Shown piece by piece: positions 17,361-39,567 of a stretch of 39,567 bases of DNA. Position 1 is the first letter of the stretch, and the number at the start of each line of letters is the position of its first letter. Origin of the DNA: a virus; the IMG/VR virus record IMGVR_UViG_3300025141_008995, positions 1 to 39,567 of that record; one strand, given 5' to 3'. The position numbers and the translations under genes are program-made. The notes under the pieces were generated by a model, which worked only from the letters and a program-made list of their open reading frames with translations, was not told where the DNA came from and searched no databases.

Positions 17361-17366
17361 ATTACT

Positions 17367-18101
17367 TTATATAGAGGATTTCATGGAACAATCTACAGGA
17401 TAATCGTAAGGTAAATTTATATCTTTATAAGGTACGGATTTAACCTCGGGGAATTCCTCACGAGCTAAGTCTATAACCGCTTTCCGCTTAGTTCCTATGT
17501 TTAGAATACCTTTTTTATTTTTACAAATAGCCTCTACAATCTTCTTAGCGATGATATCCACCCAATCCTTAGACGTGTAAACATCCCTAAACGCTTGAGT
17601 TAATTGTTTTTTATCCTCTCCCCAAGTCTCTCGTTTAACAAAAGAAGTTCTAATAATTAGATCGGTTTTAGAAAAATGTGATTCCCCTGCCAATTTGGTA
17701 AAACCGTAAAACGTAGTAGGTCCTGTTTTACTTCGGGGGGTGTAATTTCCTTCTATGCCAGGATAAACATAATCAGTAGAAATATAAACAACTTTAACCT
17801 TTGATACTTCATCAAACGCGTAAGCAATGTTTGCGGCTCCAAAAATGTTCGACTCGATTACCTTTCTTTGAAACTTGGGGTTTTCAGCTTTGGGGACATC
17901 GGTCCACGCAGCTGCATGTATTACTAAATCGTACTTAGTATTTCTAGCGAACTCTGCAACTTCTACAACATCTTCTACTCTAAGCTCTGCACGTGTCGGT
18001 GCGTCTACCTCAGCCCCTTCATCTATAAGAAGAGGTATGAGTTCAGAGCCTAACGCACCACTACCCCCGGTTACTAAAATCTTTCGTTCTACTAATCTCA
18101 T
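17367..18101 (-). CDS. rmlD: dTDP-4-dehydrorhamnose reductase
   Basis: Reduces dTDP-4-keto-L-rhamnose to dTDP-L-rhamnose. SDR fold with GGSGALGSEL near the N-terminus, then VIHAAAWTDVPKAE (compare VVNAAAYTxVDxAE), YISTDYVYPG, and the catalytic Y-x3-K in FYGFTKLAGE. The length is 244 aa, below the usual 290-300, with a reduced substrate domain. The start overlaps the rmlB 3' end by about 40 bases. The family ending is intact but short. Confidence 0.85.
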   Translation of the reverse strand: MRLVERKILVTGGSGALGSELIPLLIDEGAEVDAPTRAELRVEDVVEVAEFARNTKYDLVIHAAAWTDVPKAENPKFQRKVIESNIFGAANIAYAFDEVSKVKVVYISTDYVYPGIEGNYTPRSKTGPTTFYGFTKLAGESHFSKTDLIIRTSFVKRETWGEDKKQLTQAFRDVYTSKDWVDIIAKKIVEAICKNKKGILNIGTKRKAVIDLAREEFPEVKSVPYKDINLPYDYPVDCSMKSSI

Positions 18102-19044
18102 CTTTTAAAAATCCTTCTAAGGTTTGATATACTTTTTCCCCTAGGAATTCTTCTGTTTTCTTATTGTTAAGTCTATAAACTCTGTCATGTCCTAATCTAT
18201 CTTCGACGTGGACAGTTTTTAACTCCATCCCTAGTTGTTTTGCAATGTACTTGACGATTTCTATATTTTTATAATGAAATCCTGATCCGATATTGTATTC
18301 TTCATTTTCTGCAGACGAAAACATTAATTCCAAAATAGTTTGGCAATTATCATCCACGTGCATCCACTCACGAGACTGAAGACCATCACCGTAAATAGGA
18401 ATTTCCAAATCTCCTTTAATGGCTTTAAACACTTTTGGAATGAATTTTTCGGGGTTTTGGTTTGGTCCGAAATTATTGCAGGTTCTCGTGATGAGGTAGG
18501 GCACGTCGAATGTCCTTGCAGCTGCTTGAACCAAGAGCTCTGCAGAAGCTTTCGTTGCTGAATAATACGAAGACGGGCGAAGCTTAAAGGATTCATCAGA
18601 GGATTGTCGTCCTTGTAGGTCGTACATATCCCCATAGACTTCATCCGTAGATATTTGGATAAATTTCTTGAGTTTTTTGGCATGTTTAAAGTACTCTAAT
18701 AGGTTAAGAACGCCTTCTACATTAGTCTTAACGAAAGGGCGTCCGTTGGTAATGGAATTGTCTACATGAGTCTCCGCAGCAAAATTAACAACGTACTTAG
18801 CTTTTAAAAGTGCATCCTGCTCAAGGTCTGGTAGTTTGTTAAAGTCGATACAAATATCCTCTTTCATAAAACGATATCGCTTTATGTCTTGACGCATTCT
18901 TTCGGAGAGTCGTGTATGGTCAGCGGCGTAGGTTTCTTTATCGATGTTGATAATCTTTAACTTAGTATTTTCATACACAGCGTGTATAAATCTAGACCCA
19001 ATAAAACCTAAACCCCCAGTAATTACAATCGTATCATTTTCCAC
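18061..19044 (-). CDS. rmlB: dTDP-glucose 4,6-dehydratase
   Basis: Converts dTDP-glucose to dTDP-4-keto-6-deoxyglucose. Nucleotide loop GGLGFIGSRF, FAAETHVDNSI, ISTDEVYGDM (catalytic Thr-Asp-Glu), SYYSATKASAELL (Y-x3-K) and RTCNNFGPNQNPEKFIP are diagnostic. 327 aa is normal for the family. The start overlaps the rmlA stop, giving an rmlA-rmlB-rmlD cluster transcribed together. Confidence 0.92.
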   Translation of the reverse strand: MENDTIVITGGLGFIGSRFIHAVYENTKLKIINIDKETYAADHTRLSERMRQDIKRYRFMKEDICIDFNKLPDLEQDALLKAKYVVNFAAETHVDNSITNGRPFVKTNVEGVLNLLEYFKHAKKLKKFIQISTDEVYGDMYDLQGRQSSDESFKLRPSSYYSATKASAELLVQAAARTFDVPYLITRTCNNFGPNQNPEKFIPKVFKAIKGDLEIPIYGDGLQSREWMHVDDNCQTILELMFSSAENEEYNIGSGFHYKNIEIVKYIAKQLGMELKTVHVEDRLGHDRVYRLNNKKTEEFLGEKVYQTLEGFLKDEISRTKDFSNRG

Positions 19045-19778
19045 TACGCAAACTCCTTAATCGATTCTTTCCATAGTGTATGTGAAGCTTTTGCTAACGA
19101 ATCAAAAGTACCGCAATCAATCCAAGTTCCTTGTACTCTATGAACTCCTAACTGCTGGTCTTTTAGGTACATATTGTTAATATCAGTAATTTCTAGTTCT
19201 CCTCTAGCCGAGGCGGTAAGTTTTGAACACTTCTCGAAGATAGTATTATCATACATGTAAAGACCTATTACTGCATCAGAGGATGGGGGGTTGTTAGGTT
19301 TTTCTATAATGGTGATTGGCAACCCGTTTTCCGAATATTCCACAACTCCAAATCTTTCAGGGTCGGGGACTTCTTTAACGAAAATGGTTGCTCCTTTAGA
19401 AACAGCCTCAAACTCCCGCACGGCAGGCGCGATATCTTCAAAGATTAGATTATCCCCAAGGATAACTAGGCAATTATCATCACCTACAAATGTTTCCGCT
19501 TTTGCTAAAGCATCGGCAATCCCGCCTTCTCCTTCTTGGTAGGCGTAATGTAATTTATTCAACCCAAAGGCTTCACCGTTTTTCAGCACTCGAATAAAAT
19601 CACCCGCGTGCGGACCTCCAGTAACAACCATAACATCTTCAATTCCAGCGTCAACCACTGTCTGAATAGGATGATACACCATAGGCTTATCATAAACAGG
19701 CAATAAATGCTTGTTTGTAGCTGCCGTTAACGGCAGTAACCTCGTCCCTAAACCCCCAGCTAATATTACGGCTTTCAT
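19044..19778 (-). CDS. rmlA: Glucose-1-phosphate thymidylyltransferase (short form)
   Basis: Makes dTDP-glucose. The nucleotide-binding signature GGLGTRLLPLT (residues 8-18) is followed by NKHLLPVYDKPMVYHP, VILGDNLI and the late motif WIDCGTFDSL. The 244-aa form lacks the C-terminal allosteric segment of the roughly 290-aa enzyme, as in many phage and archaeal forms. A terminator hairpin ends in a T run that touches the ATG, so transcription from above may be cut here. Confidence 0.88.
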   Translation of the reverse strand: MKAVILAGGLGTRLLPLTAATNKHLLPVYDKPMVYHPIQTVVDAGIEDVMVVTGGPHAGDFIRVLKNGEAFGLNKLHYAYQEGEGGIADALAKAETFVGDDNCLVILGDNLIFEDIAPAVREFEAVSKGATIFVKEVPDPERFGVVEYSENGLPITIIEKPNNPPSSDAVIGLYMYDNTIFEKCSKLTASARGELEITDINNMYLKDQQLGVHRVQGTWIDCGTFDSLAKASHTLWKESIKEFA

Positions 19779-23329: not shown

Positions 23330-23637
23330 TTTAATTCCTCTGCAGGGTTCGGTAGCAGTTTTATAGGAGTATTCTCTAAATCCACTAGCCAATCTGGAGG
23401 TACATCACCGGAATCCTCCGGGTTGTCCAAAACAATAATGATAGGCTCCTCTTCTTCTTTGTGGCACCACCCCATAATAAGCTCATAAATACGCACAAGA
23501 CCTGCGATAAACTGCAGAACTGCGGAACATATCTCCCTCGCTACAAACTTAAGAATCCCACTCCAAACCCAAATCTTATAGATTACTGGGCTCAGAAAGA
23601 ACAAATACACTCCTACGGTCATTATGCTTTGTATCAT
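23320..23637 (-). CDS. Membrane-anchored hypothetical protein (105 aa)
   Basis: Two hydrophobic stretches near the N-terminus (IMTVGVYLFFLSPVIYKIW, EICSAVLQFIAGLVRIYEL) precede an acidic, Pro-rich soluble tail (NPEDSGDVPPDWLVDLENTP). The start has the ribosome site GGAG and overlaps the upstream stop. Topology would fit a holin- or envelope-associated protein. No family is recognised. Confidence 0.5.
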   Translation of the reverse strand: MIQSIMTVGVYLFFLSPVIYKIWVWSGILKFVAREICSAVLQFIAGLVRIYELIMGWCHKEEEEPIIIVLDNPEDSGDVPPDWLVDLENTPIKLLPNPAEELKWQ

Positions 23638-24074
23638 TACTTATTCTCCGGTAACCACCACTCCTTATCCACGAATTCAAAAGCTCCTGCTCTCTCCTCA
23701 TCTGGATTTTCAGGGTCGTATTTCTTTGTTACTAGGTACAACAAACCACATGGCTCGTCTCCTACGCAAGTTAGCCCATGCCATTCGCCAGCTTTTACAT
23801 GAATAACGCCTGGATTATGCTCGCCAATAAAAAACTTTTCGGGACCGTTTTCGTGAGTGTAAATTCCAACTTGAGCCATTCCTTTAAGAATGCAAAAGTA
23901 ATCATCTTGGTGCTTATGGCGGTGCCAAGCTTTGACGACCCCCGGATATAGGATTGAGTAATTGATTTGATAGTCTAATGCCTTGTGAGGTTGTATGTCT
24001 ACACAAGCATAAATATCATTCAGACTCCAACCCCGTGCGTCGGCGAACTTAGGAAGAGGGTGAATCGTCGTCAA
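23637..24074 (-). CDS. rmlC: RmlC-like cupin, dTDP-4-dehydrorhamnose 3,5-epimerase-type
   Basis: A 145-aa cupin: WHRHKHQDDYFCILKGMAQV gives the metal or catalytic His cluster and the conserved glycine strand, VIHVKAGEWHGL is the second cupin motif, and the ending YDPENPDEERAGAFEFVDKEW is characteristic of RmlC/sugar-epimerase proteins. RmlC is normally about 180 aa, so this is a compact form like FdtA/WxcM-type 3,4-ketoisomerases. With rmlA, B and D it can complete dTDP-L-rhamnose synthesis. The overlap with the next gene is 26 bases. Confidence 0.7.
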   Translation of the reverse strand: MTTIHPLPKFADARGWSLNDIYACVDIQPHKALDYQINYSILYPGVVKAWHRHKHQDDYFCILKGMAQVGIYTHENGPEKFFIGEHNPGVIHVKAGEWHGLTCVGDEPCGLLYLVTKKYDPENPDEERAGAFEFVDKEWWLPENK

Positions 24075-24294
24075 AGTCTTTCTCTAGTTGGTCGTTTAGG
24101 AGTTGTGTTTTCGGATTTTTTTTATCCTTTAAGAGAGCCTTAATTCCGTTTAACTCTGCATCCATACGCATCAAAGACATTTCGACTGCCTTATTACTTG
24201 CGTGGAAAACGCATTTGTTTTTAACCCATGCAAACACAGGACACCATACGGTACCTAGTAAAAAGGATACCCCTGCAATATATAAATCATTCAT
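24049..24294 (-). CDS. Single-pass membrane protein (81 aa)
   Basis: An N-terminal membrane helix (about residues 5-24, IAGVSFLLGTVWCPVFAWV), then a helical charged domain with an acidic tail (DFDDDSPSS). Ribosome site GGAG lies upstream of ATG 24294. Its stop lies inside the start of the cupin gene. It resembles holins or small envelope proteins, without proof. Confidence 0.55.
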   Translation of the reverse strand: MNDLYIAGVSFLLGTVWCPVFAWVKNKCVFHASNKAVEMSLMRMDAELNGIKALLKDKKNPKTQLLNDQLEKDFDDDSPSS

Positions 24295-25252
24295 TTGTAA
24301 ATCTCCCCATTAAAGTTTTATCTATCTCTGCTTTTCTTTGTTTAGTCTTGCCATCGTCGAGAGAATACCACCCTTTGGTCGGTGATGTTACCGTCCCCTC
24401 TTTATAGTATAAATCGCAGAGACCGTGCCCTTTCGTCAGACCTTTATCGTATAAAAGTTCGAAAGTGCATTCTTGAAACGGCTTAGAAATCTTGTTTTTA
24501 ACCGCTTTGATTGTTCCTGTAATACCAGACGGGTTTTTCATCTTATCGTATAAAACATCATTTTTGCCAGACGCAGCTTCTAGGGAAGTCCCACAGTAAT
24601 ACAGTAGTGCTTTACCCCCGCCAGCTCTCGTTCTAGGGTCTCCAAACATAACGCCTACTTTACTTCGTACTTGGTTAATAATAATCAACCCTGCCTTGTA
24701 CTTCCTAAGCATCGGATTAATTCTCCTTAAGCACTGACCTGCAACCTTTGCACGTAAAGCTCCCCCCATCTCGGAGTTTTTGCCAAATTCGTCTAACATC
24801 TCTTTTCGTGTTGGAGAAACTCCAATAGAATCATATCCAATCAGGATAGGAGTGTCTGGATCTTGTTCCCGAATAGCTTTAATAGTATTCTCGATAGTCT
24901 CAAAACAATCTTCCAAAGCTTCAGGCTGAAAGTACAAAAGCTTATTCGCATCAACGCCAAGAGTTTTTGCAAAAGATGGAGAATACGCATGTTCATTGTC
25001 TATCATAACAGTGTAAAATCCTTTCTTCTGAGCTCCGATAAAAGCGTGCGTTAAAAACACCGTCTTAGCAGTACTACTTTCTCCGTAAATTTCAGTGATA
25101 GACCCAATCGGATATCCCTTCTCAGCATCCCCAGAGATAATTTTATTTAAAGCGTATGATCCAGAATCAACGTACCCAAAAACCTGATCTTGGTCGGATA
25201 AAATAGAAGCCCCCTCGAGCTTCTTACAAATGTCATCTAATAGACTTCCCAT
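24287..25252 (-). CDS. RecA/UvsX-family recombinase (321 aa)
   Basis: Forms the strand-exchange filament. Walker A is GESSTAKT (residues 57-64) in place of the bacterial GPESSGKT, with Ala at the usual Gly. Then MIDNEHAY, LIGYDSIGVS (Walker B Asp about 141), GGALRAKVAG, and the L2-type LIIINQVRSKVGVMFG, where NQ is the conserved sensor. RxxxGG (RTRAGGGKAL) is also present. The C-terminal RecA domain is absent, as in UvsX/RecA of phages. It starts four bases after an RCCTTTWATA motif. Confidence 0.9.
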   Translation of the reverse strand: MGSLLDDICKKLEGASILSDQDQVFGYVDSGSYALNKIISGDAEKGYPIGSITEIYGESSTAKTVFLTHAFIGAQKKGFYTVMIDNEHAYSPSFAKTLGVDANKLLYFQPEALEDCFETIENTIKAIREQDPDTPILIGYDSIGVSPTRKEMLDEFGKNSEMGGALRAKVAGQCLRRINPMLRKYKAGLIIINQVRSKVGVMFGDPRTRAGGGKALLYYCGTSLEAASGKNDVLYDKMKNPSGITGTIKAVKNKISKPFQECTFELLYDKGLTKGHGLCDLYYKEGTVTSPTKGWYSLDDGKTKQRKAEIDKTLMGRFTNE

Positions 25253-25266: not shown

Positions 25267-26235
25267 TTAATTTTTAGATTTTTGGTACCAATCAACATAT
25301 CTTTTTATTCCTTCCTCGTAAGGAACTTCAGGATTGTAGTTATGTCTTTCTTTTATTTTAGAAATAGAGGACTGAGTTTTTGTAGGCTCACCGGCTTGTA
25401 TTGTCATCTCCTCGCAGTTGGGGATTTTATGCATATGCACGCCTATTTCAGCAACCATTTCATGCAGTTCTACAGGCTCTCCCCTCCCTATATTAAAAAT
25501 TTCAAAACCTTGAACATCAGACATGCAGCAAAAAATACCTTCTATAATATCAGAAATATAAGTATAGTCTCTAAACGTCTCTCCTTGACTACCGTACAAT
25601 TGTATGGGGGTCCCTTCATCAATAGCTTTTGTAAACTTTGCTATTGCCATGTCAGGGCGTTGTCTAGGACCGTATACTGTAAAGAACCGTAACCCTAACA
25701 TAGGTATTTTAGTTAGCTTGTGGTAAGTGTAACAGACCTCTTCAAGAGCTTTTTTGCTTCCTGCATAAGGAGATAAAGGTTTAGATACGTTCATACTCTC
25801 CTCCCATGGAAACACTTTAACACCTCCATAGACGCTCGAGGATGAAGCAAAAATAAGCTTAGCCCTCCACCTGTACGGAGAATTTTCAAGAGCGCGTAAC
25901 AAGCTTAAACTTTTAATTAAGTTATTTTGGTAATACTTTTCAGGGTCGTCCAAGGAAGGTCGAACTCCTGCATGTGCAGCTAAGTGTATAACATAATCAA
26001 ACCCTGTAGTCATTAGAGTTTTGGTAACTTCCTCTCCTGAAAAATCACCTTCAATCAACTTGTACATAGGGTTATCGAGGTTGGCAGACACATTCCTACG
26101 TTTAAGCTTACTAGGGTAGTCTGGATGGTACTGCCCAAACGTATCACACCCCCAAACTTCATAACCTTCAGACAGCAATCTGTCTGCTAGATTAGAACCT
26201 ATAAACCCGGCTATCCCTGTTATGAATACTCTCAT
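25267..26235 (-). CDS. NAD-dependent nucleotide-sugar epimerase (GalE/CapI-like)
   Basis: SDR fold: TGIAGFIGSNLADRL near the N-terminus, HLAAHAGVRPSLDDP, ASSSSVYGGVKVFPW, the catalytic SPYAGSKKALEEV (Y-x3-K), LRFFTVYGPRQRPDMA and FNIGRGEPVEL. The AGVR and YGPRQRPDMA pieces are typical of UDP-glucuronate 4-epimerases (CapI). 322 aa is normal. Substrate cannot be fixed from sequence alone. It overlaps the GT2 gene by 4 bases and heads the glycan island. Confidence 0.85.
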   Translation of the reverse strand: MRVFITGIAGFIGSNLADRLLSEGYEVWGCDTFGQYHPDYPSKLKRRNVSANLDNPMYKLIEGDFSGEEVTKTLMTTGFDYVIHLAAHAGVRPSLDDPEKYYQNNLIKSLSLLRALENSPYRWRAKLIFASSSSVYGGVKVFPWEESMNVSKPLSPYAGSKKALEEVCYTYHKLTKIPMLGLRFFTVYGPRQRPDMAIAKFTKAIDEGTPIQLYGSQGETFRDYTYISDIIEGIFCCMSDVQGFEIFNIGRGEPVELHEMVAEIGVHMHKIPNCEEMTIQAGEPTKTQSSISKIKERHNYNPEVPYEEGIKRYVDWYQKSKN

Positions 26236-26951
26236 ACTTTAAAAAGTGAGTACTTGTACTCTGAATCCTCGAAGTAAAATTTAAAATGTTCAGGGTTAAT
26301 TTCTTTCTCCTTTGTACTATCATCTAGGGAACGGTTACCTCCGTGCCATGCATAAATCATTACAGCTTGCTTGACGTGTACAAAACCGGGTTTTACTTTC
26401 CATATTTCTTTTGCTGTATGCCAATCACATGCCCTTCGGCAAAAAACAAGTTCCATCTTTTCGTATACGGAATGTCGATAAATATATTGACCTCCGTCTA
26501 CGCCCCAGCCAGGTTCCCCTGTAGGGTCCCAATCAGCCAAAGTGCAATAAGCTACTTTATCCGTCTCATCTTTGGTGTACCTATCCCCATAAGCTAATAC
26601 ACTGTCAGTACCGCTCAAGGCACCTACAAGAGTGGTTAATTTATCCGTAGCGTGGTGTATATCATCATCCCAAGGGGCGATAAACTCACCCTCGGCCCTT
26701 GTTATTCCTACCGCTCTAGGGATAGAAACACAGCCCGAATTTCTAGGCAGTTTAACATACTTAATACGAGGTTCGTTCTCGACAGCCTCTTTCATAATCT
26801 TTTCCGTATCATCGGAAGAACCATCGTCTACTACAATAAGTTCCCAATCTTTATAGCAACTGTTTACGAGCTCATAAAACCTCTTCTTTAAGAAGTCTGC
26901 TCTGTTATAAGTCGGCATGATGCACGACACTAATCCTTTTTTATACTTCAT
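26232..26951 (-). CDS. Family 2 glycosyltransferase
   Basis: GT-A fold: SCIMPTYNRADFLKKR, then LIVVDDGSSDDTEKI (nucleotide-binding DDGS) and FIAPWDDDIHHATDKL with the metal-binding DxD. ATG 26951 is used in place of an upstream TTG. 239 aa is enough for one GT2 domain. It transfers a sugar to an unknown acceptor. The start overlaps the upstream deacetylase-like gene by 11 bases. Confidence 0.85.
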   Translation of the reverse strand: MKYKKGLVSCIMPTYNRADFLKKRFYELVNSCYKDWELIVVDDGSSDDTEKIMKEAVENEPRIKYVKLPRNSGCVSIPRAVGITRAEGEFIAPWDDDIHHATDKLTTLVGALSGTDSVLAYGDRYTKDETDKVAYCTLADWDPTGEPGWGVDGGQYIYRHSVYEKMELVFCRRACDWHTAKEIWKVKPGFVHVKQAVMIYAWHGGNRSLDDSTKEKEINPEHFKFYFEDSEYKYSLFKV

Positions 26952-27606
26952 GAACAAATTTAAAATTTACATCATTATTTTCAATGTAGGAACACACCTT
27001 ATCAAACGTCTCAGCAATTCCATTACTGCATGTGTCGTGGGTATGTCCGTGGGCGATAATTGTCTTCGGGGCGATCTTCGCAATAAGTTTGTTTAATAAC
27101 CCCTCTTCTAAAGGAGCCTCATCAGCGAGATTCCAATTGTAATATAGAACTTTAATCTTACCTTGGTAACTCTCACCTAGTTCCAAATAATCCTCGTGGC
27201 TGTATAAATGGGTATAATTCCTTTTTACCATCGCCTTTACAGAGTCATCACATAAACCCCAATGAGGTCCCCGAAAGACTTTCCGGTAGGGTAACTTCGC
27301 TTCCTCAAAAATACTTTCCGCCATGTGTAAGGCTGCGTACGCCTGGTCGTAAGAATACATTTTAAACTCTTCTTGGTTGTGGTGTAATCCGTGAACCGCC
27401 AAAGATACATTTCCATTGCTTATATGATCTCTAAGCTTATCACAAAACTCTGGATCTGCGTACACGGGAAATCCCCTTAAATAAGGAATTGAAAAAAAGG
27501 ACAATTTTATGTCCGGAAATCTTTCAACTAACTTATCGATAGTCTCCATACAATTCTCTGGGGGCAGGAAATGTAAATCATCATACTCTAATACTAAATT
27601 AACCAT
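26941..27606 (-). CDS. Polysaccharide deacetylase-like (NodB-fold) protein
   Basis: Contains the set expected of a carbohydrate esterase 4 or DUF2334-type fold: LEYDDLHFLP (first Asp pair), LAVHGLHHNQEE (HxxxH-like metal site), FRGPHWG and TIIAHGHTHDTC. 221 aa. It may remove acetyl groups from a sugar or sugar nucleotide in the glycan made by the island. Activity is inferred from motifs, and the order departs from classical NodB enough that the substrate is open. Confidence 0.65.
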   Translation of the reverse strand: MVNLVLEYDDLHFLPPENCMETIDKLVERFPDIKLSFFSIPYLRGFPVYADPEFCDKLRDHISNGNVSLAVHGLHHNQEEFKMYSYDQAYAALHMAESIFEEAKLPYRKVFRGPHWGLCDDSVKAMVKRNYTHLYSHEDYLELGESYQGKIKVLYYNWNLADEAPLEEGLLNKLIAKIAPKTIIAHGHTHDTCSNGIAETFDKVCSYIENNDVNFKFVHEV

Positions 27607-28219
27607 TTTTTGAAAATCCGAGATCCCTCATAAAATATTTTCTGTTATCCTCAAGGAAAGCTCCATCTCCATAAAAGATCTTTTTGCAGTTTTTTGAGAT
27701 ATAATATAACGCTATCTCTACAAGCAATAATTTCATGATACCGTTTTTTAAATGATCCTTATGCCCCATAAAAGCGTGGACTGCAACACCTCCTAGCCAA
27801 ACTACCATTTCCCCCAAAGCGACATGCTTTCCAGATGGACTGATGATGGAAAACATGTGAAGACCACCACTATAATCACCGTCCCTCACATTTGTGTAAG
27901 GGGTATAATCATCTACAGGCCAATCTGGGCCTATATCGTGCCAGGCGAAATCAATAGCATTATATCTTTTGTTTATTGGACGTCCTTGCTTTAAATCGCC
28001 TCCGTAGCTCTCATAGATGTCCACTAAATCATCATGAGGTACTTTACCGACCAGGTTAAACAGGTACCCAAGTTTTTTTGCTTTTCTGTGGTCAGTGCGG
28101 GCATTTGTTGTGATAGTTTCATTCCAATACTCCTCCTTTGAAGAGGGTAACTCCGATCTCAATAAATGGGGGGTAACACTACCAAACCAAGTATCCAGAG
28201 TGCGGGGGGTTACCTTCAT
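27599..28219 (-). CDS. Hypothetical protein, possibly GNAT-like (206 aa)
   Basis: ATG 28219 is used: it overlaps the methyltransferase stop (TAATG) and has a strong ribosome site (GGAGGAAGG). The last 60 residues (GIMKLLLVEIALYYISKNC, then IFYGDGAFLEDNRKYFMRDLGF) look like the end of an acetyltransferase fold, as in GNAT or FemAB-type proteins. The N-terminal half is not recognised. In this setting it might acylate a sugar. Confidence 0.45.
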   Translation of the reverse strand: MKVTPRTLDTWFGSVTPHLLRSELPSSKEEYWNETITTNARTDHRKAKKLGYLFNLVGKVPHDDLVDIYESYGGDLKQGRPINKRYNAIDFAWHDIGPDWPVDDYTPYTNVRDGDYSGGLHMFSIISPSGKHVALGEMVVWLGGVAVHAFMGHKDHLKNGIMKLLLVEIALYYISKNCKKIFYGDGAFLEDNRKYFMRDLGFSKNG

Positions 28220-28725
28220 TATACCTTCCTCCGAAACAAACAAGAAGTATTATGGTTTTTCTGTTGTATTTCGACAACCTCAAAATCAGTATTTTTAAAT
28301 AACTCAGAAAAACCATCCTTTGATACTCGCCAGTAGTCCCCAAAACTAGGAGGCTCGGCGTGGTAAGGATATTCCCATGGGCAGTCTATAATTAACCACC
28401 CTCCTGGCTTAATAAGCCTTTCCACTTCTTTAGGGATATCCCACAAGTTAGGAACATGTTCGATTACTTGCACACATAAAATAATATCATAAGCCTTGGA
28501 AGGTAAATCACAGCCTGTAATATCTCCTACAATATCAGGTCCCCATGCAGGGTCTGCGTCAAATGTCTCTACTGTGTACTTTGGAAAAAGGGGGGTGTAC
28601 TCACCTCCAGGCGGGTCACCCGCAATTCCTACGTATAACAACTGTCCCTCTGACTGCTGTGCATTAATTATCTCAGCAAAATGTGTGACTGAATCAGTGC
28701 ATTGTTGTCTCGCTTGGCTAACCAT
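28219..28725 (-). CDS. SAM-dependent methyltransferase (type 11-like)
   Basis: LLYVGIAGDPPGGEYTPLF is a degenerate motif I, with FDADPAWGPDIVGDI as the acidic loop after beta-2, then AYDIILCVQVIEHVPNLWD (typical type 11 motif with EHV) and LIKPGGWLIIDCPWEY. 168 aa. It probably methylates a sugar or other small product in the island. The start has GGGAG and overlaps the upstream GT stop. Confidence 0.8.
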   Translation of the reverse strand: MVSQARQQCTDSVTHFAEIINAQQSEGQLLYVGIAGDPPGGEYTPLFPKYTVETFDADPAWGPDIVGDITGCDLPSKAYDIILCVQVIEHVPNLWDIPKEVERLIKPGGWLIIDCPWEYPYHAEPPSFGDYWRVSKDGFSELFKNTDFEVVEIQQKNHNTSCLFRRKV

Positions 28726-29408
28726 TAGAATCTCCCATTGAAATAATCCTCCCCATATCTCTCATGTTGTCCCAAAGTACTTTCCTGATGCTCTACAATA
28801 ATAGCATTCTCCAAATACGCCATGGGCACATTTTTCATCAGACACTTTTGAGAGTGTTGCCCGTCCTCATTACCGCTCTGACCCTCCATCAAGTCAGGCT
28901 CGAACTTCCAATCTTTAACCACGTGGGCAGGAGCGACACGAGCAAAACCTCCAACATGGTTTACCATTCTTAAAGTGTAATACGTATCCATCTCCTCACT
29001 ATACTTAACAGTATGGGCATGACCCCTAGGACCTCCAGGGTTTCCGATAAGACCAACAGGATAGGGGGAGAATACCGCATTCGGAAATACCTTACTAACT
29101 TCTTCAATATGTTTTAAAAACTGACCGGACTTAATAATACAATCATCATCCATTTTAATAATAATATCTCCCTTAAGCTGCGGAATAATTCTATTCATTC
29201 CTTCAGCAATTCCAATATTTTCTTCCCAAATGTGAACTTTGATTTTACTCTTATGCTCCAAATAAAACTTCATCTCCTTAGAGGGTTCAACCCCCTGAAA
29301 ACAAATATGGTGTTCGTAATCCGAATGCCCCCCTAATGTCTCAATAGAGCGTATAAGGTTCTTTAAATAATAATCCCTTCCTAGGGTAAATGTGTAAATG
29401 CTAATCAT
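28725..29408 (-). CDS. Family 2-like glycosyltransferase
   Basis: ISIYTFTLGRDYYLKNLIRS is a GT2-type start, WEENIGIAEGMNRI corresponds to the NxGxxxAxNxG segment, and DIIIKMDDDCIIK supplies the DxD metal site. The end carries EHQESTLGQHERYG. 227 aa. It overlaps the radical SAM gene by 8 bases. Donor and acceptor are unknown. Confidence 0.8.
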   Translation of the reverse strand: MISIYTFTLGRDYYLKNLIRSIETLGGHSDYEHHICFQGVEPSKEMKFYLEHKSKIKVHIWEENIGIAEGMNRIIPQLKGDIIIKMDDDCIIKSGQFLKHIEEVSKVFPNAVFSPYPVGLIGNPGGPRGHAHTVKYSEEMDTYYTLRMVNHVGGFARVAPAHVVKDWKFEPDLMEGQSGNEDGQHSQKCLMKNVPMAYLENAIIVEHQESTLGQHERYGEDYFNGRF

Positions 29409-30891
29409 GTGATGATCTTAATATGTTTGGTGGGATACTCCCCTGCCCCATGCTATGTTCAAATTTTACGATGCCTCCAGCCGGGTTAAATGGTATGTTT
29501 AAAGTACTTCGAACCTCGGCTTCTAATTTATCTCTTTCTTCTACTAACTCTTCGGGGGTAATATGGTCAGTCCACACATAAGAGGCGTACCCACCATCTG
29601 GGTCTCCTTTATAATAGTCTGGTTTGGACAAATAATCTAGTTCCTTTTGGTACAACTTATCTCCTGTTCTAGGTTGGATATACACCCATTTCCCATCCTC
29701 TCTAATAGCACTGTCGAAATACGGCGAGCCTGGATATGTTGTAATGATAGTACAATCGAAATCATCAGGCTTAACTTCAAGAAGCCAGTTTTTAGTATTC
29801 TCAATAGTTTGTTTGCTTTCCCCTGCGTGCCCTATAGACATTAACGCTTTAACCTTTAAGCCTGCTTCCTTAGCGTACTTAATACATCTTGTATTAGCGG
29901 CGACATCTGCATTCTTCTCTATATTAATTAGAATCCGTTCGTCTCCTGACTCAAAGCCTGTAAGTAACCACCTGAAACCGGCTTTATACATTAAGCTAGC
30001 TTGCTTTTGGGTAAAAAGTTCTGCTTTTACAAACCCTCTCAGCTTGAACTCTTCTCCTACCTCTTCTTGCAGGGCTATAAGTTGCTCTAACAAGGTTTCC
30101 CATTCTTTGTTAACGTTTAATTCGTCGTCGTAAAACATGAAACCTGTAAACCCGTACGTTTCGTACAGGTGGCGAATCTCCGAGACAACCGACGCTCCAT
30201 CCCTAGTCCTAATCCTTCGCAAGAATGGAGAATTTCTCCCCCCGCAAAAAGTACATTTAAAAGGGCATCCTAACTGGCAGATGATGCTTGTGGCGTTGTT
30301 TCCCTCAATATCGTAATGGTAGGATTCTACGTCTACGAGATGCCTAGCCGGAAAGGGTAGCTCCGCCAAGTCAGAATTAGATAGGAAAAGATCTCCTTTC
30401 GGTTCATCAGCGTCTATCACACCTTTCTCAAGTTTTAACGCTTCAAATATCGCCTTCTCTCCATCCCCAGCAACTAAAACATCAAAAAGATTTAAAAGGG
30501 CTTCTACATCAACAGTAGCTCTTCCTTTTTCCTCTTTCAACACATCTTTCAGCTCTTTCTTCATCGCGGAATGCATAAGGGAAACGTGCGTACCTCCTAA
30601 AATTACCTTGGTAGATTTGTTAACCTCTTTAATGGCATTCCTTACCTTTAATGCAAAAGGGACTTGGGGGGTAGTCGCAGTGATCCCAAAAGTTCTTGTT
30701 TTAGGGTATTGCTTCATGTAAGAATTTATTACTTCTTCACTATCTTCAACCCCCGCTAAATCTAAAAAATCAACAACATAATCCTCTTCCTCCAGGCAGG
30801 CTGCTACTTTTAAAATTCCAATATGCATAAAAACCCTTTCATCTAATAAAAAGGGAGAGGATGGTGTAATCAAACAGATTCTTTCTTTCAT
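29401..30891 (-). CDS. B12-binding radical SAM enzyme (496 aa)
   Basis: The N-terminal 150 residues form a cobalamin-binding Rossmann-like domain (FMHIGILKVAACLEEEDYVV, VILGGTHVSL, VLVAGDGEKAI). Residues C209, C213 and C216 (CPFKCTFC) bind the 4Fe-4S cluster that cleaves SAM. Later segments GFMFYDDELNV and TGFESGDERILINIEKN are typical of the BchE/MiaB-like group. In a glycan island it could C-methylate or rearrange a sugar. The host must supply cobalamin if it is used. Confidence 0.85.
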   Translation of the reverse strand: MKERICLITPSSPFLLDERVFMHIGILKVAACLEEEDYVVDFLDLAGVEDSEEVINSYMKQYPKTRTFGITATTPQVPFALKVRNAIKEVNKSTKVILGGTHVSLMHSAMKKELKDVLKEEKGRATVDVEALLNLFDVLVAGDGEKAIFEALKLEKGVIDADEPKGDLFLSNSDLAELPFPARHLVDVESYHYDIEGNNATSIICQLGCPFKCTFCGGRNSPFLRRIRTRDGASVVSEIRHLYETYGFTGFMFYDDELNVNKEWETLLEQLIALQEEVGEEFKLRGFVKAELFTQKQASLMYKAGFRWLLTGFESGDERILINIEKNADVAANTRCIKYAKEAGLKVKALMSIGHAGESKQTIENTKNWLLEVKPDDFDCTIITTYPGSPYFDSAIREDGKWVYIQPRTGDKLYQKELDYLSKPDYYKGDPDGGYASYVWTDHITPEELVEERDKLEAEVRSTLNIPFNPAGGIVKFEHSMGQGSIPPNILRSSHD

Positions 30892-31475
30892 TTCCCTAAA
30901 TGTAATCCTAAGTGTCTAGCTAAAGCTATAGTGCCTTTTCCATGAAAACCAAACTGACCTTTATAAGGCATGTCTTCTACGGAAAATAGGTAAGCAAGGT
31001 CATGCGGGGCATACTTTATACCTAACTCGACCATTGCTTCGTTTACAGTTCTACAAAGGAAAACATCTTCTGGTTCTGATCTTCCATCGTATTCTGTAAA
31101 ATAAGAAGAGTACTTCAAAAACTTTTTGGACCGTATTGAAAAACCTCCGTTACCTACAGTTTTAGACATCTCCCACGGCTGAGTGTACCACGGGGCTCCA
31201 ATATAATCGTAATCTAAAAATTTATCGTCCCAAGCGTCCAGGTTTACGGGGTGCCCATCCGCCTGTACAATCATGCAAAAATCCGATTCGATATGCTCAC
31301 TTAATTCATGCACTATAAACTTATTATAGTCTTCTATAGAATTTAAATTATCCTGAAAAAGTTTACAGTCATAAAAATCAATTTCTGTCTTTAACCACTC
31401 GACCAATTTAGGAATATTTTCATTAACTCCATCAGCACAAACTAAAGTTACGTTAGAAAGATCTAATTTACTCAT
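30888..31475 (-). CDS. DUF5672-family putative glycosyltransferase
   Basis: FCMIVQADGHPVNLDAWDDK, then YDYIGAPWYTQ, TVGNGGFSIRSKKFL, PEDVFLCRT and FGFHGKGTIALA match DUF5672 proteins, thought to be glycosyltransferases. 195 aa. The start overlaps the neighbouring GT2-like gene by 8 bases. It belongs to the run of sugar-transfer genes. Confidence 0.8.
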   Translation of the reverse strand: MSKLDLSNVTLVCADGVNENIPKLVEWLKTEIDFYDCKLFQDNLNSIEDYNKFIVHELSEHIESDFCMIVQADGHPVNLDAWDDKFLDYDYIGAPWYTQPWEMSKTVGNGGFSIRSKKFLKYSSYFTEYDGRSEPEDVFLCRTVNEAMVELGIKYAPHDLAYLFSVEDMPYKGQFGFHGKGTIALARHLGLHLGK

Positions 31476-32235
31476 CGAATGTACTCAAAGGTAGAAAGGG
31501 GGATAGGGTGTCTTCAAACTGGAAGTGGTGGGATAAAGAGGGTACTGGAGAGATGCACAAATGTTCTTCGTACACTAAGTTGATTGTATTAGCTTCTGTT
31601 ACTGTAGGATCAATTCCGTACTTTGTAAGTTTCTCATATTTATCCCAATGCTTGATTAAAATATCTTTATGCAATCCAATAGTACCTGTCGTATTAACTA
31701 CGTTCCGCCAATGTCTATTTTTTCCCAAAAACAAATAAGAAGGATGCATGGGGGTGAACTTATTATGGTACCTGTCCGGATAGTCTACAGGGTGAACTAC
31801 AACTTCATTACCTACAAGCTTCTTAATTTCAAGATAGGCGTCAATGCATTCATCCAAAGTGGACTCTACCATTAAATAATCATCCTCAATAAAAAACAAA
31901 AAACCACTCAACTTAGCCTTTGAATAGTTATAACATGTTTTTAAGCTGTTTCCGTTTCCAGTACCTTCCATAGGGATGAGAGTAAACTCAAATCCGTACT
32001 TAGATGATACTGTATCGAACATCTTTAAGAGCTCTGCTGAGGAATTATCGTCTGCAATGTACAGGCTTAACGGGTTTGTTAACTTTCCGTTTTCGGTATA
32101 GTTTTTAATTGATTTTGCCAACGAAGTAAAACACTTCGTAATAACTTCTAATTTCGTACCGAACGGACGAACTCTACCCCCTCCAGAATAAGCATTTACC
32201 CTGTCACAACTTCTATAAATTATGTTAACATTCAT
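31468..32235 (-). CDS. Family 2-like glycosyltransferase
   Basis: SLYIADDNSSAELL (DDxS motif) and GFLFFIEDDYLMVEST (DxD-like EDD) show a GT-A fold. The end (EEHLCISPVPSLSHHFQFED) is reminiscent of glycosyltransferases with a His pair near the acceptor site. 255 aa. Likely a glycosyl transferase of the glycan island, acceptor unknown. Confidence 0.7.
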   Translation of the reverse strand: MNVNIIYRSCDRVNAYSGGGRVRPFGTKLEVITKCFTSLAKSIKNYTENGKLTNPLSLYIADDNSSAELLKMFDTVSSKYGFEFTLIPMEGTGNGNSLKTCYNYSKAKLSGFLFFIEDDYLMVESTLDECIDAYLEIKKLVGNEVVVHPVDYPDRYHNKFTPMHPSYLFLGKNRHWRNVVNTTGTIGLHKDILIKHWDKYEKLTKYGIDPTVTEANTINLVYEEHLCISPVPSLSHHFQFEDTLSPFLPLSTFDE

Positions 32236-32237
32236 AT

Positions 32238-32957
32238 CTAAACGTACGTTGCCCCTTCCCTTTTAAAGACTGCAGCAGGGTGGGTTTTATCCATTTCATT
32301 AACTAAATTTTTCTTCATCCCCTCCGCAATAGCATGAGGCAATCCTTGATTGCCTATGAACATATCTGCGGCTCCAATTACATTAGCAAGTTTCACCAAC
32401 GTAGGAGTTTCAATATACTCTATCTTTTGCTCAAAAGTATACTCCCAAACTTTATGGTCAAAAGGAAGACCTACAAAAACTGCAGACTTAGCCAACTGCT
32501 CCGCTATGGATTCCCAATAGAAATGATTTCCTTGGTATCGTACACTTCGAGACACAACGATATTTTTACCTTCTGGAAGTGTAATTTTTTCAGGGGCTTC
32601 AAGCCATTTAAAAGTTGCTAATTCATGAGGTATTTGAAACGCCTCCAAATGAGAATAGGTAAGGTTGTTAAAATTAACATGCCCCCTAAAAGAATCTAGA
32701 TTGTACGTTATCTCTTCACCATTCCACTCTCGAACTTCGTGGATATAATACTGACTCTCAAGAAGAGGTTTTAATAGTTGGATGGTTTGAGAGTTTAATT
32801 TTGTTTTCCCTCGAGACGGTTTCGCACCTACGAGTTCACCTTCCCCTCCTTTAGGGTCTAAATATAAAATTCCCGTACCAAAATGTTTTATTACGGGTAG
32901 GGAAAATATAATATCCCCCATATCTCCAGAATGCTTATACGTCTTCCCAGAAGCCAT
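32238..32957 (-). CDS. GT9-like glycosyltransferase (heptosyltransferase-type)
   Basis: GDMGDIIFSLPVIKHFG at the N-terminus is the GDxxxxxPxxxxL segment of family 9 (LPS heptosyltransferases). SRSVRYQG and FVGLPFDHKVWE stand at the donor-domain start, and ADMFIGNQGLPHAIAEGM is the donor-binding motif (compare DTGPxHLAAA). It has 239 aa, while WaaC/F have about 320-350, so it is short. It may use the ADP-heptose the phage helps to make. Confidence 0.65.
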   Translation of the reverse strand: MASGKTYKHSGDMGDIIFSLPVIKHFGTGILYLDPKGGEGELVGAKPSRGKTKLNSQTIQLLKPLLESQYYIHEVREWNGEEITYNLDSFRGHVNFNNLTYSHLEAFQIPHELATFKWLEAPEKITLPEGKNIVVSRSVRYQGNHFYWESIAEQLAKSAVFVGLPFDHKVWEYTFEQKIEYIETPTLVKLANVIGAADMFIGNQGLPHAIAEGMKKNLVNEMDKTHPAAVFKREGATYV

Positions 32958-34128
32958 GTTGTACTAAAAGTTGCTTATACAGGTTTAGGCGGTGGACAAC
33001 TTGTTTGTTTATATCATACAACTCATCAGTAACCGACTTTAAGTTTAAACCCATTTCACGACAGCCTTTCGGGTCTTTCGCTAATTTCGATAGTCTTGCG
33101 ACCCACTCGCTTCTTGGATTTGTTTTATCTATTAAATACCCCGTTTCTCCATTTATAATCAATTCATCATATGCGCCACAGTCAGTCGCGACTAAAGGCA
33201 GACCATACCTTCCACATTCTGCAACTTTAATATCAGACTTAGAATCATTAAAATTATTCCATTCAAGGGGGGCGATTCCGACATCCATTTGGGTAAACAT
33301 ATACCCGTATTGAAAGGACGGCATAGCGTTAAAAACTCCGAAATTTCGATGTTTAATACCTGCGGTTAAAAGCTTGGTATAGTTGTCCCAAACATCCTGC
33401 TGCCAGTCTCCCTTTTCGCCCGGTTGTAAAGGTGGTCTCCCGAAAAACTTCCACTCTACATTTTCGGGACCTGCTTTAATGTTAACCCCCATTGCCATAG
33501 TTGGAACTTGCTTCAAATCTTGTTCGTGGTGAATTCCACCAACCCAACCAATTCTCATAGGTCCTTTCTTTCTGGGGGTCCAAGGAGCATTCCAACAAGG
33601 CAAGTCATAATCAATAGCGTTTTTCATAACCGCTAAAGTTCGGTTGCAGTAAGGTGCAATTCTCTCAGCAAACTTTCTTTGGGTTACTGTAACCAAGTCC
33701 GCATTAGAGTATACAAATTGAGTCAGTTCATCTAACTTATTTTCTTTGTATAGATTCCACAGTCTGTGACCTTCGTATAAATCTGTAAGTAAATCATCCG
33801 TATCGTAATGAAAAAACTTGCCCTTTTCTTTTAGTACTTGGACTAGTTTAAAGAGGTAGGGTGCACCGTAATTTGGAATATTTTGAGTGAATACAATATC
33901 AGCCCACTCAATATCAGACAAATCGGGCTCCTCGTCATACTTTTTTTCTTTTTCGTTATAGCAAAGGGGGTTCTGATTAAATCTTATCTCTACTTCCCCA
34001 GAAAACTTTTCAGCAAGTTTCCGCATAGGCATTAAGATGCGATAATAAGCACAACCACCCTCATTGGCAGCAACCGCAAGAATTTTCATCTTGCGGTTAA
34101 CTTTCTTCGTTTCTCCTTCGTCAGGCAC
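32935..34128 (-). CDS. Family 4-like glycosyltransferase (397 aa)
   Basis: GT-B fold with a GT1/GT4-type end: VGIAPLEWNNFNDSKSDIKV, then ECGRYGLPLVATDCGAYDEL (EX7E motif) and ETGYLID. The start is GTG 34128, which overlaps the SSB stop (TAGTG); the ATG at 34089 (KILAVAANEGGCAYY) is the alternative start and gives a 384-aa protein. It overlaps the GT9 gene by 23 bases. A retaining sugar transferase of unknown donor. Confidence 0.85.
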   Translation of the reverse strand: MPDEGETKKVNRKMKILAVAANEGGCAYYRILMPMRKLAEKFSGEVEIRFNQNPLCYNEKEKKYDEEPDLSDIEWADIVFTQNIPNYGAPYLFKLVQVLKEKGKFFHYDTDDLLTDLYEGHRLWNLYKENKLDELTQFVYSNADLVTVTQRKFAERIAPYCNRTLAVMKNAIDYDLPCWNAPWTPRKKGPMRIGWVGGIHHEQDLKQVPTMAMGVNIKAGPENVEWKFFGRPPLQPGEKGDWQQDVWDNYTKLLTAGIKHRNFGVFNAMPSFQYGYMFTQMDVGIAPLEWNNFNDSKSDIKVAECGRYGLPLVATDCGAYDELIINGETGYLIDKTNPRSEWVARLSKLAKDPKGCREMGLNLKSVTDELYDINKQVVHRLNLYKQLLVQHGFWEDV

Positions 34129-34862
34129 TATAGACCTTTTAAATGGGACAAGTAATCCTCGTCACCGTCTTCTTTGGAGTTCGAACTTTCAACTACTTCT
34201 TTAGGAGGTTCGGGAGTATCGTCTCCGGTAATCTCCATAACAAGCTTTTTAAGGTCCTCGTAACTAGCAACCTTAATCAAGCCATGAACATCATGAAGAG
34301 TGTCCATATACTCTGCGGTTTCCTTATCCGAACCTAGAGGTGATTGCTTAGGCTTCGGCGCCGACTTGGAATAGTCTGGCCACTGCCCTGATTTATCCTT
34401 AACGATTTTAAAATCATGACCTACGTTCACATCAGTGATGTCGCCATAATCCTCGTCAAAGAAACAATCTAAGATTTTACTGAAAAGTTTGATACCTACA
34501 GAAAGAATCTTTACCTCTCCTGTTGCACGTTCAACTGCGTTCAAGTAAAATCTCTTGCGAGCTTTAATTTGACGAGCCAAATCCATATTTGCTTCATCCT
34601 TAGTGTTCCAAAGTTTAAAGCTGAGATCACACATTGGGCATTCTCCACCTTTAACTTTAGGGCAGTGATAGTTTCGGTCGTTAATACGATGGATTCCGGT
34701 CTCGGAGTAAAACTCCTGAGTTTCATCCTTCCAAGGAAGGACACGAACAATAGTTTCGCCTTCCTCCATCATTAAAAACTTCTTTAGGAAGTCTGCATTA
34801 TCCTTGCTAGCAACTTTGTTAATTTGATTGTATTTATTTTTTAGATTTTCTATGTTTACCAT
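34128..34862 (-). CDS. T4 gp32-like single-stranded DNA-binding protein
   Basis: Coats single-stranded DNA in replication and recombination. Zinc ligands H66, C67, C75 and C78 (YHCPKVKGGECPMC) resemble the H-C-C-C site of T4 gp32. The OB-fold core follows (RFYLNAVERATGEVKILSVG). The C-terminal tail is acidic (SSNSKEDGDEDYLSHLKGL), as needed to contact the recombinase and helicase. The leader between this gene and the upstream stop is almost pure A, see the entry at 34863. Confidence 0.88.
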   Translation of the reverse strand: MVNIENLKNKYNQINKVASKDNADFLKKFLMMEEGETIVRVLPWKDETQEFYSETGIHRINDRNYHCPKVKGGECPMCDLSFKLWNTKDEANMDLARQIKARKRFYLNAVERATGEVKILSVGIKLFSKILDCFFDEDYGDITDVNVGHDFKIVKDKSGQWPDYSKSAPKPKQSPLGSDKETAEYMDTLHDVHGLIKVASYEDLKKLVMEITGDDTPEPPKEVVESSNSKEDGDEDYLSHLKGL

Positions 34863-37925: not shown

Positions 37926-38285
37926 TTAATCTCCTTGGGTCACCCTATAGCTATCCCCTTCGGAATGGTATGTAGAAAATTCAAACAGTTCAGTATCTTC
38001 CACAGCTTCCATTTGGTGTCTCAGCAAAGGTGGGACATCAAAAACATCCCCCGCACTAAGAAGAACTTCCACCGCATTATCTAGGTCATTTTCTTCTCCA
38101 TGTCTTAAAATTAATTTTCCTGACTGTACATAAAACGTCTCAGTTTTTCTCCGATGGTAGTGGTAAGAGCATTTTTTTCCTTTATTAAAAAATAAAAGCT
38201 TGCCGCAGTATTTCTCGGAATTAGCAATCCATAGCTCATACCCCCAACCTTTTGGGTGGTATTCTGATTGTTTTACATTACTCAT
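37926..38285 (-). CDS. Cupin, mannose-6-phosphate isomerase-like (119 aa)
   Basis: Single cupin domain: GKKCSYHYHRRKTETFYVQ gives the HxH(x4)E metal site, SGKLILRHG the core glycine strand, and GDVFDVPPLLRHQMEA the second motif with His. The plan matches type-II phosphomannose isomerase C-terminal or sugar-isomerase cupins. It sits just below the split HldE genes, suggesting a part in sugar-phosphate supply. Substrate unknown. Confidence 0.7.
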   Translation of the reverse strand: MSNVKQSEYHPKGWGYELWIANSEKYCGKLLFFNKGKKCSYHYHRRKTETFYVQSGKLILRHGEENDLDNAVEVLLSAGDVFDVPPLLRHQMEAVEDTELFEFSTYHSEGDSYRVTQGD

Positions 38286-39051
38286 AAATTTTATCCGGGT
38301 TTATAGTATGACACCCAAGTTTGGTTACGGAAATAGCGGCACACTTGTTTGCAAACCTAATAGAAGCCCCTACGTCGTCTGTAGTTAAAAAACAAGAAAC
38401 GAAAGCTGATAAAAAGGTATCACCTGCGCCAGTTGGGTCAAACATATCTACTTTCTCTGCAGGGAAAGTAGTATTTTTATACTTGGTTCCTTTAGATCCT
38501 AACGTAACTATGTACTTATTACTTTTGTCTTCGTGCACCAACGCCTCGTACTCAAGCTCATTTAGTTTTATATAAGCCCCTTTAACTCCATTCAAATAAC
38601 TCTTTTTAGTGTCTATGAACAACTTTGCATCGTAAAGGTACGCCTTGTCAGAAATCTCCGCTAAAACATGTAAGGGTAAAAAGCCTTTATCGTAATCAGA
38701 AATAACTATTGCGTCAAAATTCTTAAAACAAGGTAAAGTTTCAACCTTTAGTTTGCTAACTGGAGTGTCTTCTCGATCTAATCTAATGAGTTGTTGGCTA
38801 GACCGACTATCAATGATTCTTGTTTTTTTGATAGGCTCATGATTGTGAATGAAAGTAACCTCATTCCCTAGCGCAGTTAGATTACTTTGTACGTTTCCGC
38901 CCATTCCTTCCTTCTCCTCCCACTTGTTTATTTTTACTACAGGGACAGGAGCCTCAGGGCTAATTCTATCAACTGTACCAAACAAATACTTGTCTATGCA
39001 CAGCTCACCTAGCAGAAGAATCTTCGATGGTTTTAGTAGAGGAATATCCAT
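38278..39051 (-). CDS. hldA: Heptose-7-phosphate kinase (HldE N-terminal domain-like)
   Basis: A PfkB/ribokinase-fold kinase. The N-terminus ILLLGELCIDKYLFGTVDRI followed by SPEAPVPVV matches HldE/RfaE domain I, and DPTGAGDTFLSAF near the C-terminus is the catalytic anion-hole motif. It should make D-glycero-beta-D-manno-heptose 1,7-bisphosphate. 257 aa compared with about 315 in HldE domain I, so peripheral parts are trimmed. It overlaps the next gene by 47 bases. Confidence 0.85.
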   Translation of the reverse strand: MDIPLLKPSKILLLGELCIDKYLFGTVDRISPEAPVPVVKINKWEEKEGMGGNVQSNLTALGNEVTFIHNHEPIKKTRIIDSRSSQQLIRLDREDTPVSKLKVETLPCFKNFDAIVISDYDKGFLPLHVLAEISDKAYLYDAKLFIDTKKSYLNGVKGAYIKLNELEYEALVHEDKSNKYIVTLGSKGTKYKNTTFPAEKVDMFDPTGAGDTFLSAFVSCFLTTDDVGASIRFANKCAAISVTKLGCHTINPDKIYE

Positions 39052-39415
39052 TTATTTTAGGGAAAAAGTGTAGGGAGGTTACACCTAAACGGTGTCCGAT
39101 AACCTTTTTATTTTTATATTCATCCCCCACTATTATAGTATCGACTTGACAATATTTAACAAGATCTTCTAATTCTGCGTCAGAACTGAAAATCACAACT
39201 TGATCCACACACTCCAAAGCCTCTAGGATAAATTTTCTATCTTTTTGGGAGTTTACAGGGCGAGAATCACCTTTCAACTCTTTTACTCTAGAGTCAGAAT
39301 CTATACCTACGATCAGGTGATCTCCGTGTGCCTTAGCCCACTTCAGTAACTTTACGTGCCCTTTATGAAGCACGTCAAAACAACCGTTAACCCAAACGCA
39401 TTTTTTATCGCCCAT
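39005..39415 (-). CDS. hldC: Heptose-1-phosphate adenylyltransferase (HldE C-terminal domain-like)
   Basis: Cytidylyltransferase fold: VNGCFDVLHKGHVKLL contains the HxGH catalytic motif, VGIDSDSRVKELKG and RPVNSQKDR follow as in RfaE domain II, then DTIIVGDEYKNKKVIG and NGYSSTKTIE (compare YSTTxII). ATG 39415 overlaps the RNR stop (TAATG); an upstream GTG at 39427 is less likely. Makes ADP-heptose from heptose 1-phosphate and ATP. In most bacteria it is fused to the kinase, here it is separate. Confidence 0.85.
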   Translation of the reverse strand: MGDKKCVWVNGCFDVLHKGHVKLLKWAKAHGDHLIVGIDSDSRVKELKGDSRPVNSQKDRKFILEALECVDQVVIFSSDAELEDLVKYCQVDTIIVGDEYKNKKVIGHRLGVTSLHFFPKINGYSSTKTIEDSSAR

Positions 39416-39567
39416 TAAAGCTCGCACACTCCACTTTTACAAGTGTCAATTGACTCGACTGATTCTTGAATTTTACCTTCTTTAATAAGAGTATCCAAAT
39501 CGATGTCTTTAGCGTTTACAGCTTCTAAAGGTTCATTTCCCCTAGACCCTGCTCGATAAAAAGTAAA
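39415..39567 (-). CDS. nrdA: Ribonucleotide reductase large subunit, C-terminal end (partial)
   Basis: The frame is open to the right edge, giving the last 50 residues. The end, DTCKSGVCEL, copies the redox-active C-x4-C tail of class Ia RNR alpha subunits (E. coli NrdA ends in CESGACKI), which passes electrons from thioredoxin or glutaredoxin to the active site. A preceding FYRAGSRGNEPLEAV segment fits the end of the barrel region. Only the tail is seen, so the class and completeness are inferred. Confidence 0.6.
   Translation of the reverse strand, partial: FTFYRAGSRGNEPLEAVNAKDIDLDTLIKEGKIQESVESIDTCKSGVCEL

Follow-up and report, generated by a model that had tools for sequence, protein, structure and literature searches.

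A glycan gene island with exchangeable contents between gp32 and UvsX in an uncultured T4-type phage

The DNA analysed here (positions 1 to 39,567 of IMG/VR virus record IMGVR_UViG_3300025141_008995; hereafter the window, 39,567 bases) contains an island of glycan genes set among genes of DNA replication. Eleven open reading frames (ORFs), all on the minus strand, follow one another without interruption between 34128 and 25267, with intergenic spacings of -25 to +2 bp. The island is bordered by gp32 and DnaB upstream and by UvsX downstream, as assigned with Pfam and PHROG. The contents of this slot are swapped as cassettes by recombination between related phages, and a radical S-adenosylmethionine (SAM) enzyme with a B12-binding-type domain is exchanged too. 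We propose, with a probability of roughly 45%, that the island represents a surface-glycan module open to exchange, with the lipopolysaccharide (LPS) core or an outer-envelope glycan of the host as its most likely acceptor. The island and its immediate borders comprise:

34128–34862, minus strand: gp32 single-strand DNA-binding protein, upstream border (PF08804, 48.7 bits)
32935–34128, minus strand: GT4-type glycosyltransferase adjoining gp32, conserved anchor (PF13692, 35.5 bits; PHROG 7162 glycosyltransferase, 6e-36)
32238–32957, minus strand: glycosyltransferase with GT9/heptosyltransferase fold, 239 residues (AF2 model)
31468–32235, minus strand: probable GT-A (GT2-like) glycosyltransferase (DDNSS and IEDDY motifs; SpsA match at E 0.4 only)
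30888–31475, minus strand: DUF5672 protein, glycosyltransferase-like by context (PF18922, 75.8 bits)
29401–30891, minus strand: radical SAM enzyme with B12-binding-type N-terminal domain, 496 residues, conserved anchor (PF04055, 72.9 bits; PF02310, 41.6 bits)
28725–29408, minus strand: GT2 glycosyltransferase (PF00535, 27.5 bits, above cut-off)
28219–28725, minus strand: short class I SAM methyltransferase (PF08241, 37.5 bits)
27599–28243, minus strand: protein of no assigned family (no informative Pfam, PHROG, viral or PDB match)
26941–27606, minus strand: DUF2334/polysaccharide-deacetylase-like protein (PF10096, 36.1 bits)
26232–26957, minus strand: GT2 glycosyltransferase (PF00535, 95 bits)
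25267–26235, minus strand: NDP-sugar epimerase/dehydratase (PF01370, 171.9 bits)
24287–25252, minus strand: UvsX/RecA recombinase, downstream border (PF00154, 152 bits; PHROG 97)

A preliminary description of this DNA had named an epimerase (25267), GT2-type proteins (26232 and 28725), a deacetylase-like protein (DUF2334, 26941), a methyltransferase (Methyltransf_11, 28219), DUF5672 (30888) and a GT4-type protein (32935). All of these exceed the Pfam gathering score, as do the Radical_SAM and B12-binding matches at 29401. The tight packing and the location between replication genes were also described correctly, but ten genes were counted whereas there are eleven, as many as the functions it had itself listed. 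The island combines five or six glycosyltransferase-like genes with genes for an epimerase, a methyltransferase, a deacetylase-like protein and the radical SAM enzyme. It thereby fits the multi-enzyme glycan pathway that had been suggested, and donor genes elsewhere in the window add to this. The epimerase reaches no NCBIfam equivalog cut-off. The gene at 31468, called GT2-type before, is probably a GT-A (GT2-like) enzyme by motif only: its DDNSS and IEDDY motifs are common to relatives adjoining the radical SAM gene in the related viruses L042 and L045, and the match to SpsA is very weak (E 0.4), which leaves the call plausible only. A distant match of the DUF2334 protein adjoins the radical SAM gene in L040. 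The proposed acyltransferase at 27599 found no support from the searches listed above. Hydropathy revealed no clear transmembrane segment in any island protein, the maximum (1.67) lying in the 27599 protein.

Synteny in related phages had been suggested as a check, and it located the same slot filled with different sugar genes. In the syntenic relatives L002–L010 the order DnaB, small ORFs, gp32 and GT4 is kept, followed by the radical SAM gene; L061 also has the GT4 gene at this position. All syntenic relatives examined retain the GT4 and radical SAM genes, and the other sugar genes of the slot differ from those of the window. Because close relatives hold different sugar genes in the slot, no single product is conserved. 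The exchange itself is visible in two comparisons. L009 and L010 are 98% identical across the island from gp32 onward and 68–72% identical on the helicase side. Between L006 and L009, a block of 94.4% identity comprises exactly one GT2 gene and the radical SAM gene. The two radical SAM enzymes agree at 96% of protein positions and 93% of fourfold-degenerate sites, the DnaB proteins at 55%, and this comparison documents a recent transfer of the radical SAM gene between these two phages.

One relative, G005 (98.5 kb), shares the gene order of the window (DnaB 53%, gp32 46% identity), and its major head protein and terminase find their best matches among T4-type phages and in an uncultured phage of 595 kb (29–35% identity). 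Such similarities mark the window as part of the genome of an uncultured T4-type phage. Megablast of the window found no near-identical phage in GenBank. The sugar island of G005 (locus L153) also contains nadE, encoding NAD+ synthase, at 8125–8859 (182 bits, above cut-off).

The epimerase is the only sugar-donor gene within the island; the others lie at 14379–19778 and 37926–39427 and had been overlooked before. Together with a further cupin gene, they are:

14379–15398, minus strand: HldD, ADP-glyceromanno-heptose 6-epimerase (TIGR02197, 290.9 bits, cut-off 274.6)
17367–18101, minus strand: RmlD-like reductase (TIGR01214, 102 bits, cut-off 224 not reached)
18061–19044, minus strand: RmlB-like dTDP-glucose 4,6-dehydratase (TIGR01181, 294 bits, cut-off 365 not reached)
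19044–19778, minus strand: RmlA-like sugar-1-phosphate nucleotidylyltransferase (TIGR01207, 238.5 bits, cut-off 360.65 not reached)
23637–24074, minus strand: FdtA/WbuC-like cupin (PF14667, 31.4 bits; WbuC, 23 bits, below cut-off)
37926–38285, minus strand: small cupin (PF07883, 38 bits)
38278–39051, minus strand: HldE kinase-domain-like protein (best model TIGR02198, 157.9 bits, cut-off 345 not reached)
39005–39427, minus strand: HldE adenylyltransferase-domain-like protein (best model TIGR02199, 121.5 bits, cut-off 181.5 not reached)

HldD is the single equivalog call in this donor set. Family scans yielded no clear RmlC candidate in the window. The small cupin at 37926 has relatives in 14 viral loci and is a frequent neighbour of HldE genes and of the radical SAM gene in related viruses. 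L006 encodes a fusion of RpiB (ribose-5-phosphate isomerase B) with an HldE-type adenylyltransferase, along with a transaldolase-like gene. Such fusions (L006 12458–13348, L012 4212–5078; the family scan covered L006 only) adjoin a kinase, with an AraD-type epimerase also present in L012, and may serve a different activated sugar.

The heptose donor genes find a counterpart in the island. Although neither Pfam nor PHROG gave a match for the product of the 32238 gene, the AlphaFold model of this protein (predicted local distance difference test score, pLDDT, 83) matches the GT9 ADP-heptose transferases WaaC (Z score 12.3), WaaF (12.0) and TibC (11.5) over about 200 residues at 10–16% identity. 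Two NDH-PSI chains follow at Z 10–10.7, before a drop to 7.2; a family missing from such a list of structural matches is not thereby shown to be absent. The modelled protein has a GT9/WaaC heptosyltransferase fold, in line with the GT9-type label given earlier, and is predicted to use ADP-heptose. It differs from those transferases in its length of only 239 residues and in lacking a Pfam GT9 match. The donor genes and the GT9-like gene, encoded in the same window, would fit together as an ADP-heptose route.

The radical SAM enzyme carries the cluster motif CxxxCxxC (CPFKCTFC at residue 209), and PF02310 is matched by 31 of the 32 members of its family. Its AlphaFold model (pLDDT 91) is nearest to AprD4, then to MgmA, TsrM and CysS. 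The alignment with AprD4 (PDB 6fd2) spans 397 residues at 21% identity (Z 29.1, root-mean-square deviation 2.7). AprD4 is a radical SAM diol dehydratase (PMC5461906), more precisely a 1,2-diol dehydratase and not a cobalamin methylase, and acts on a sugar, paromamine. On the NCBIfam AprD4 model the window enzyme scores 68.8 bits against a cut-off of 500; indeed, it reaches the cut-off of none of the characterised B12-radical-SAM equivalogs in NCBIfam (BchE, HpnJ, PhpK, AprD4, MgmA and others), the best score being 99.6 bits against 481 for BchE. With the class B (cobalamin) methylases MgmA, TsrM and CysS, it shares the domain and radical SAM core fold (Z 25), the CxxxCxxC motif and the PF02310 match. 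From these methylases, to which GenK/GenD1 belong by function, the enzyme differs in reaching no equivalog cut-off and in having no DxHxxG motif. A PF02310-type domain is not proof of B12 use, because the nearest structure, AprD4, is a dehydratase. Of the cobalamin-type radical SAM enzyme described earlier, both domain matches therefore stand, and cobalamin use is likely. The methylated or acylated product foreseen with it is a possibility only, since the enzyme falls into no characterised equivalog and its relative AprD4 is a dehydratase.

A further link to B12, through a phage CobS/CobT cobaltochelatase encoded by the AAA and vWA genes at 7726–11409, was rejected: CobS scored 41.6 bits against a cut-off of 558 and was outscored by GvpN, and CobT_C had no match there. 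This stretch is one gene run with a MoxR-like AAA ATPase, a HELHH-motif protein and a vWA-like protein.

Relatives of the radical SAM enzyme occur in uncultured viral contigs (71, at 43–76% identity, mostly near full length) and at no fewer than 161 places in bacterial or archaeal genome contigs, the best 80 of which show 53–62% identity. Among 50,697 phage records, the sole match is in Streptomyces phage SF3 (26% identity over 44%). Genes adjoining the bacterial copies commonly encode glycosyltransferases, epimerases and methyltransferases, and the same is true of the viral copies. In a tree, the window enzyme falls into a supported group made up of 26 viruses and a single bacterial metagenome-assembled genome, and well-supported branches force at least seven changes between virus and bacterium, in a quick search with some long branches. 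Protein identity between the window and its relatives is 74–77% for the radical SAM enzyme, compared with 49–54% for DnaB, 46–53% for gp32 and 52–55% for the GT4 protein. This high identity reflects slow evolution, because the fourfold-degenerate sites of the gene (30–37% agreement) are as saturated as those of DnaB (32–46%), which rules out recent transfer as its cause.

How these genes could act together can be outlined. Donor genes elsewhere in the genome would supply ADP-heptose and probably also a dTDP-6-deoxyhexose. Soluble island glycosyltransferases of the GT9, GT4 and GT2 types would add these and further sugars to an acceptor accessible from the cytoplasm, and the radical SAM enzyme, the methyltransferase and the deacetylase-like enzyme would subsequently tailor the product. 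The LPS core or envelope glycan of the host might thus be changed early in infection, for example to exclude competing phages. Relatives recombine the module contents between gp32 and UvsX, with the GT4 and radical SAM genes staying in place. Of this outline, the sequence data establish the genes present, HldD as an equivalog, the GT9 fold, the swaps and the slow evolution of the radical SAM enzyme; the donors other than HldD's, the acceptor, the timing, the advantage to the phage and the reaction of the radical SAM enzyme are inferred.

Lipid-linked, Wzx/Wzy-type O-antigen machinery was considered as the setting and rejected: neither the initiating transferase PF02397 nor the flippase PF01943 was found in 24 records, which are fragments and in which controls were positive, other such families not being searched. 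Given this result and the lack of a clear transmembrane segment, the acceptor is probably accessible from the cytoplasm, either the LPS core of the host or a protein of the virion. We favour remodelling of the host envelope because of the pairing of the GT9-like protein with ADP-heptose genes and because of the replication-gene, probably early, setting; this is in line with the proposal made for pelagimyophages (PMC7029224). The island is not the complete route that had been suggested for it: most donor genes lie outside, neither a flippase nor an initiating transferase was found, and the slot contents vary among relatives.

Several points weigh against host-envelope remodelling. Its presumed early timing is deduced only from the replication-gene neighbours. 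The HldE- and Rml-like calls fall under their curated cut-offs, and no GmhA or GmhB was found among the scanned ORFs of the window, itself a fragment of 39.6 kb; GmhA and HAD phosphatase each have a weak match in the related virus L013. Finally, the same radical SAM family is present within the head-gene module of several unrelated phages, which would fit a virion target equally well.

It is possible, though on balance not likely, that the targets are instead virion proteins of the phage itself (capsid, fibres or decoration proteins), glycosylated by the island enzymes in the cytoplasm in the manner of TibC so as to shield the particle or tune attachment, with the radical SAM enzyme modifying the glycan or the protein. 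TibC, a match of the 32238 model, is a heptosyltransferase that acts on a protein, and MgmA, one of the solved structures nearest to the radical SAM enzyme, is a methyl-coenzyme M reductase glutamine methylase. In two viruses, L044 and L056, the prohead protease and major capsid genes flank the radical SAM gene; in two others, L027 and L069, it directly adjoins the terminase gene. Adjacency to terminase is not a general rule, being found in only 2 of the 10 records with a terminase match (distances by hand); a lone additional gene in a head module may simply be ordinary cargo, and in the window's own group the island lies beside replication genes. In L044 (5510–6937) and L056 (2345–3733) the radical SAM gene stands alone, with no glycosyltransferase recognised nearby. 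The stretch separating HldD from the RmlD-like gene encodes three paralogous small proteins (15768–17360; 256, 136 and 135 residues), candidates for a virion or decoration role on which no informative family match bears. In a broader reading, which appears doubtful, this widespread family, known from glycan loci of bacteria as well as from many uncultured phages, would use radical chemistry to tailor the surface of the virion (a capsid glycan or residue); if true, it would represent a new way of modifying the phage particle.

It is improbable that these genes are metabolic cargo carried as passengers, without one dedicated product. The almost wholly different contents of close relatives would suit such cargo; the tight translational coupling in the window, the strong constraint on the radical SAM enzyme and the constant presence of the GT4 and radical SAM genes in the syntenic relatives examined argue against it.

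It is very unlikely that the island serves to produce sugar-modified phage DNA that would resist restriction. DNA glucosylation is well known from T4-type phages, and the glycosyltransferases and replication-gene neighbourhood recall it, but PF00303 (the thymidylate synthase/dCMP hydroxymethylase family) is absent from the window and from 22 of 23 related records (the exception being 273 kb long), no island protein matched the T4-type DNA glucosyltransferase family in Pfam or PHROG, there are many more enzymes, and ADP-heptose, rhamnose-type donors and a deacetylase would be unexpected for a DNA base. The preliminary description had likewise judged the gene set to go beyond simple DNA glucosylation.

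Elsewhere in the window, positions 1–4400 form about 4.4 kb with no ORF longer than 120 residues on either strand and no Rfam match, beside a gene array lying wholly on the minus strand. Two short ORFs (3529–3768 and 4215–4439) have a similar, lipoprotein-like N-terminal stretch with a cysteine and are apparently paralogues.

Phage surface-glycan islands are already known as a kind. Those of pelagimyophages contain glycosyltransferases, rfaE and radical-SAM cassettes and were interpreted as modifying the host O-chain (PMC7029224). The host-recognition hypervariable cluster of these marine, T4-like phages thus shares with the present island its many glycosyltransferases, rfaE-type genes and radical-SAM cassettes (PMC7029224). 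It differs in adjoining tail-fibre genes, whereas the slot described here lies between gp32 and UvsX and keeps the GT4 gene and one particular radical SAM family; in G005, large fibre-like and tail-sheath-like ORFs, recognised by eye, are located away from the island. What is new is the slot, the cassette exchange, the match of donor genes with a heptosyltransferase and the persistent radical SAM family, which may have been described elsewhere, our literature coverage being partial.

Sugar-gene islands of marine phages are known and usually read loosely as 'LPS genes'. The present island offers three testable handles: ADP-heptose donor genes and a heptosyltransferase-fold protein matched in one phage, a defined gp32–UvsX slot whose contents are exchanged as cassettes, and a slowly evolving radical SAM family that stays in place as the genes around it are replaced. 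The substrate of this radical SAM enzyme would tell what such phages gain by rewriting surface sugars.

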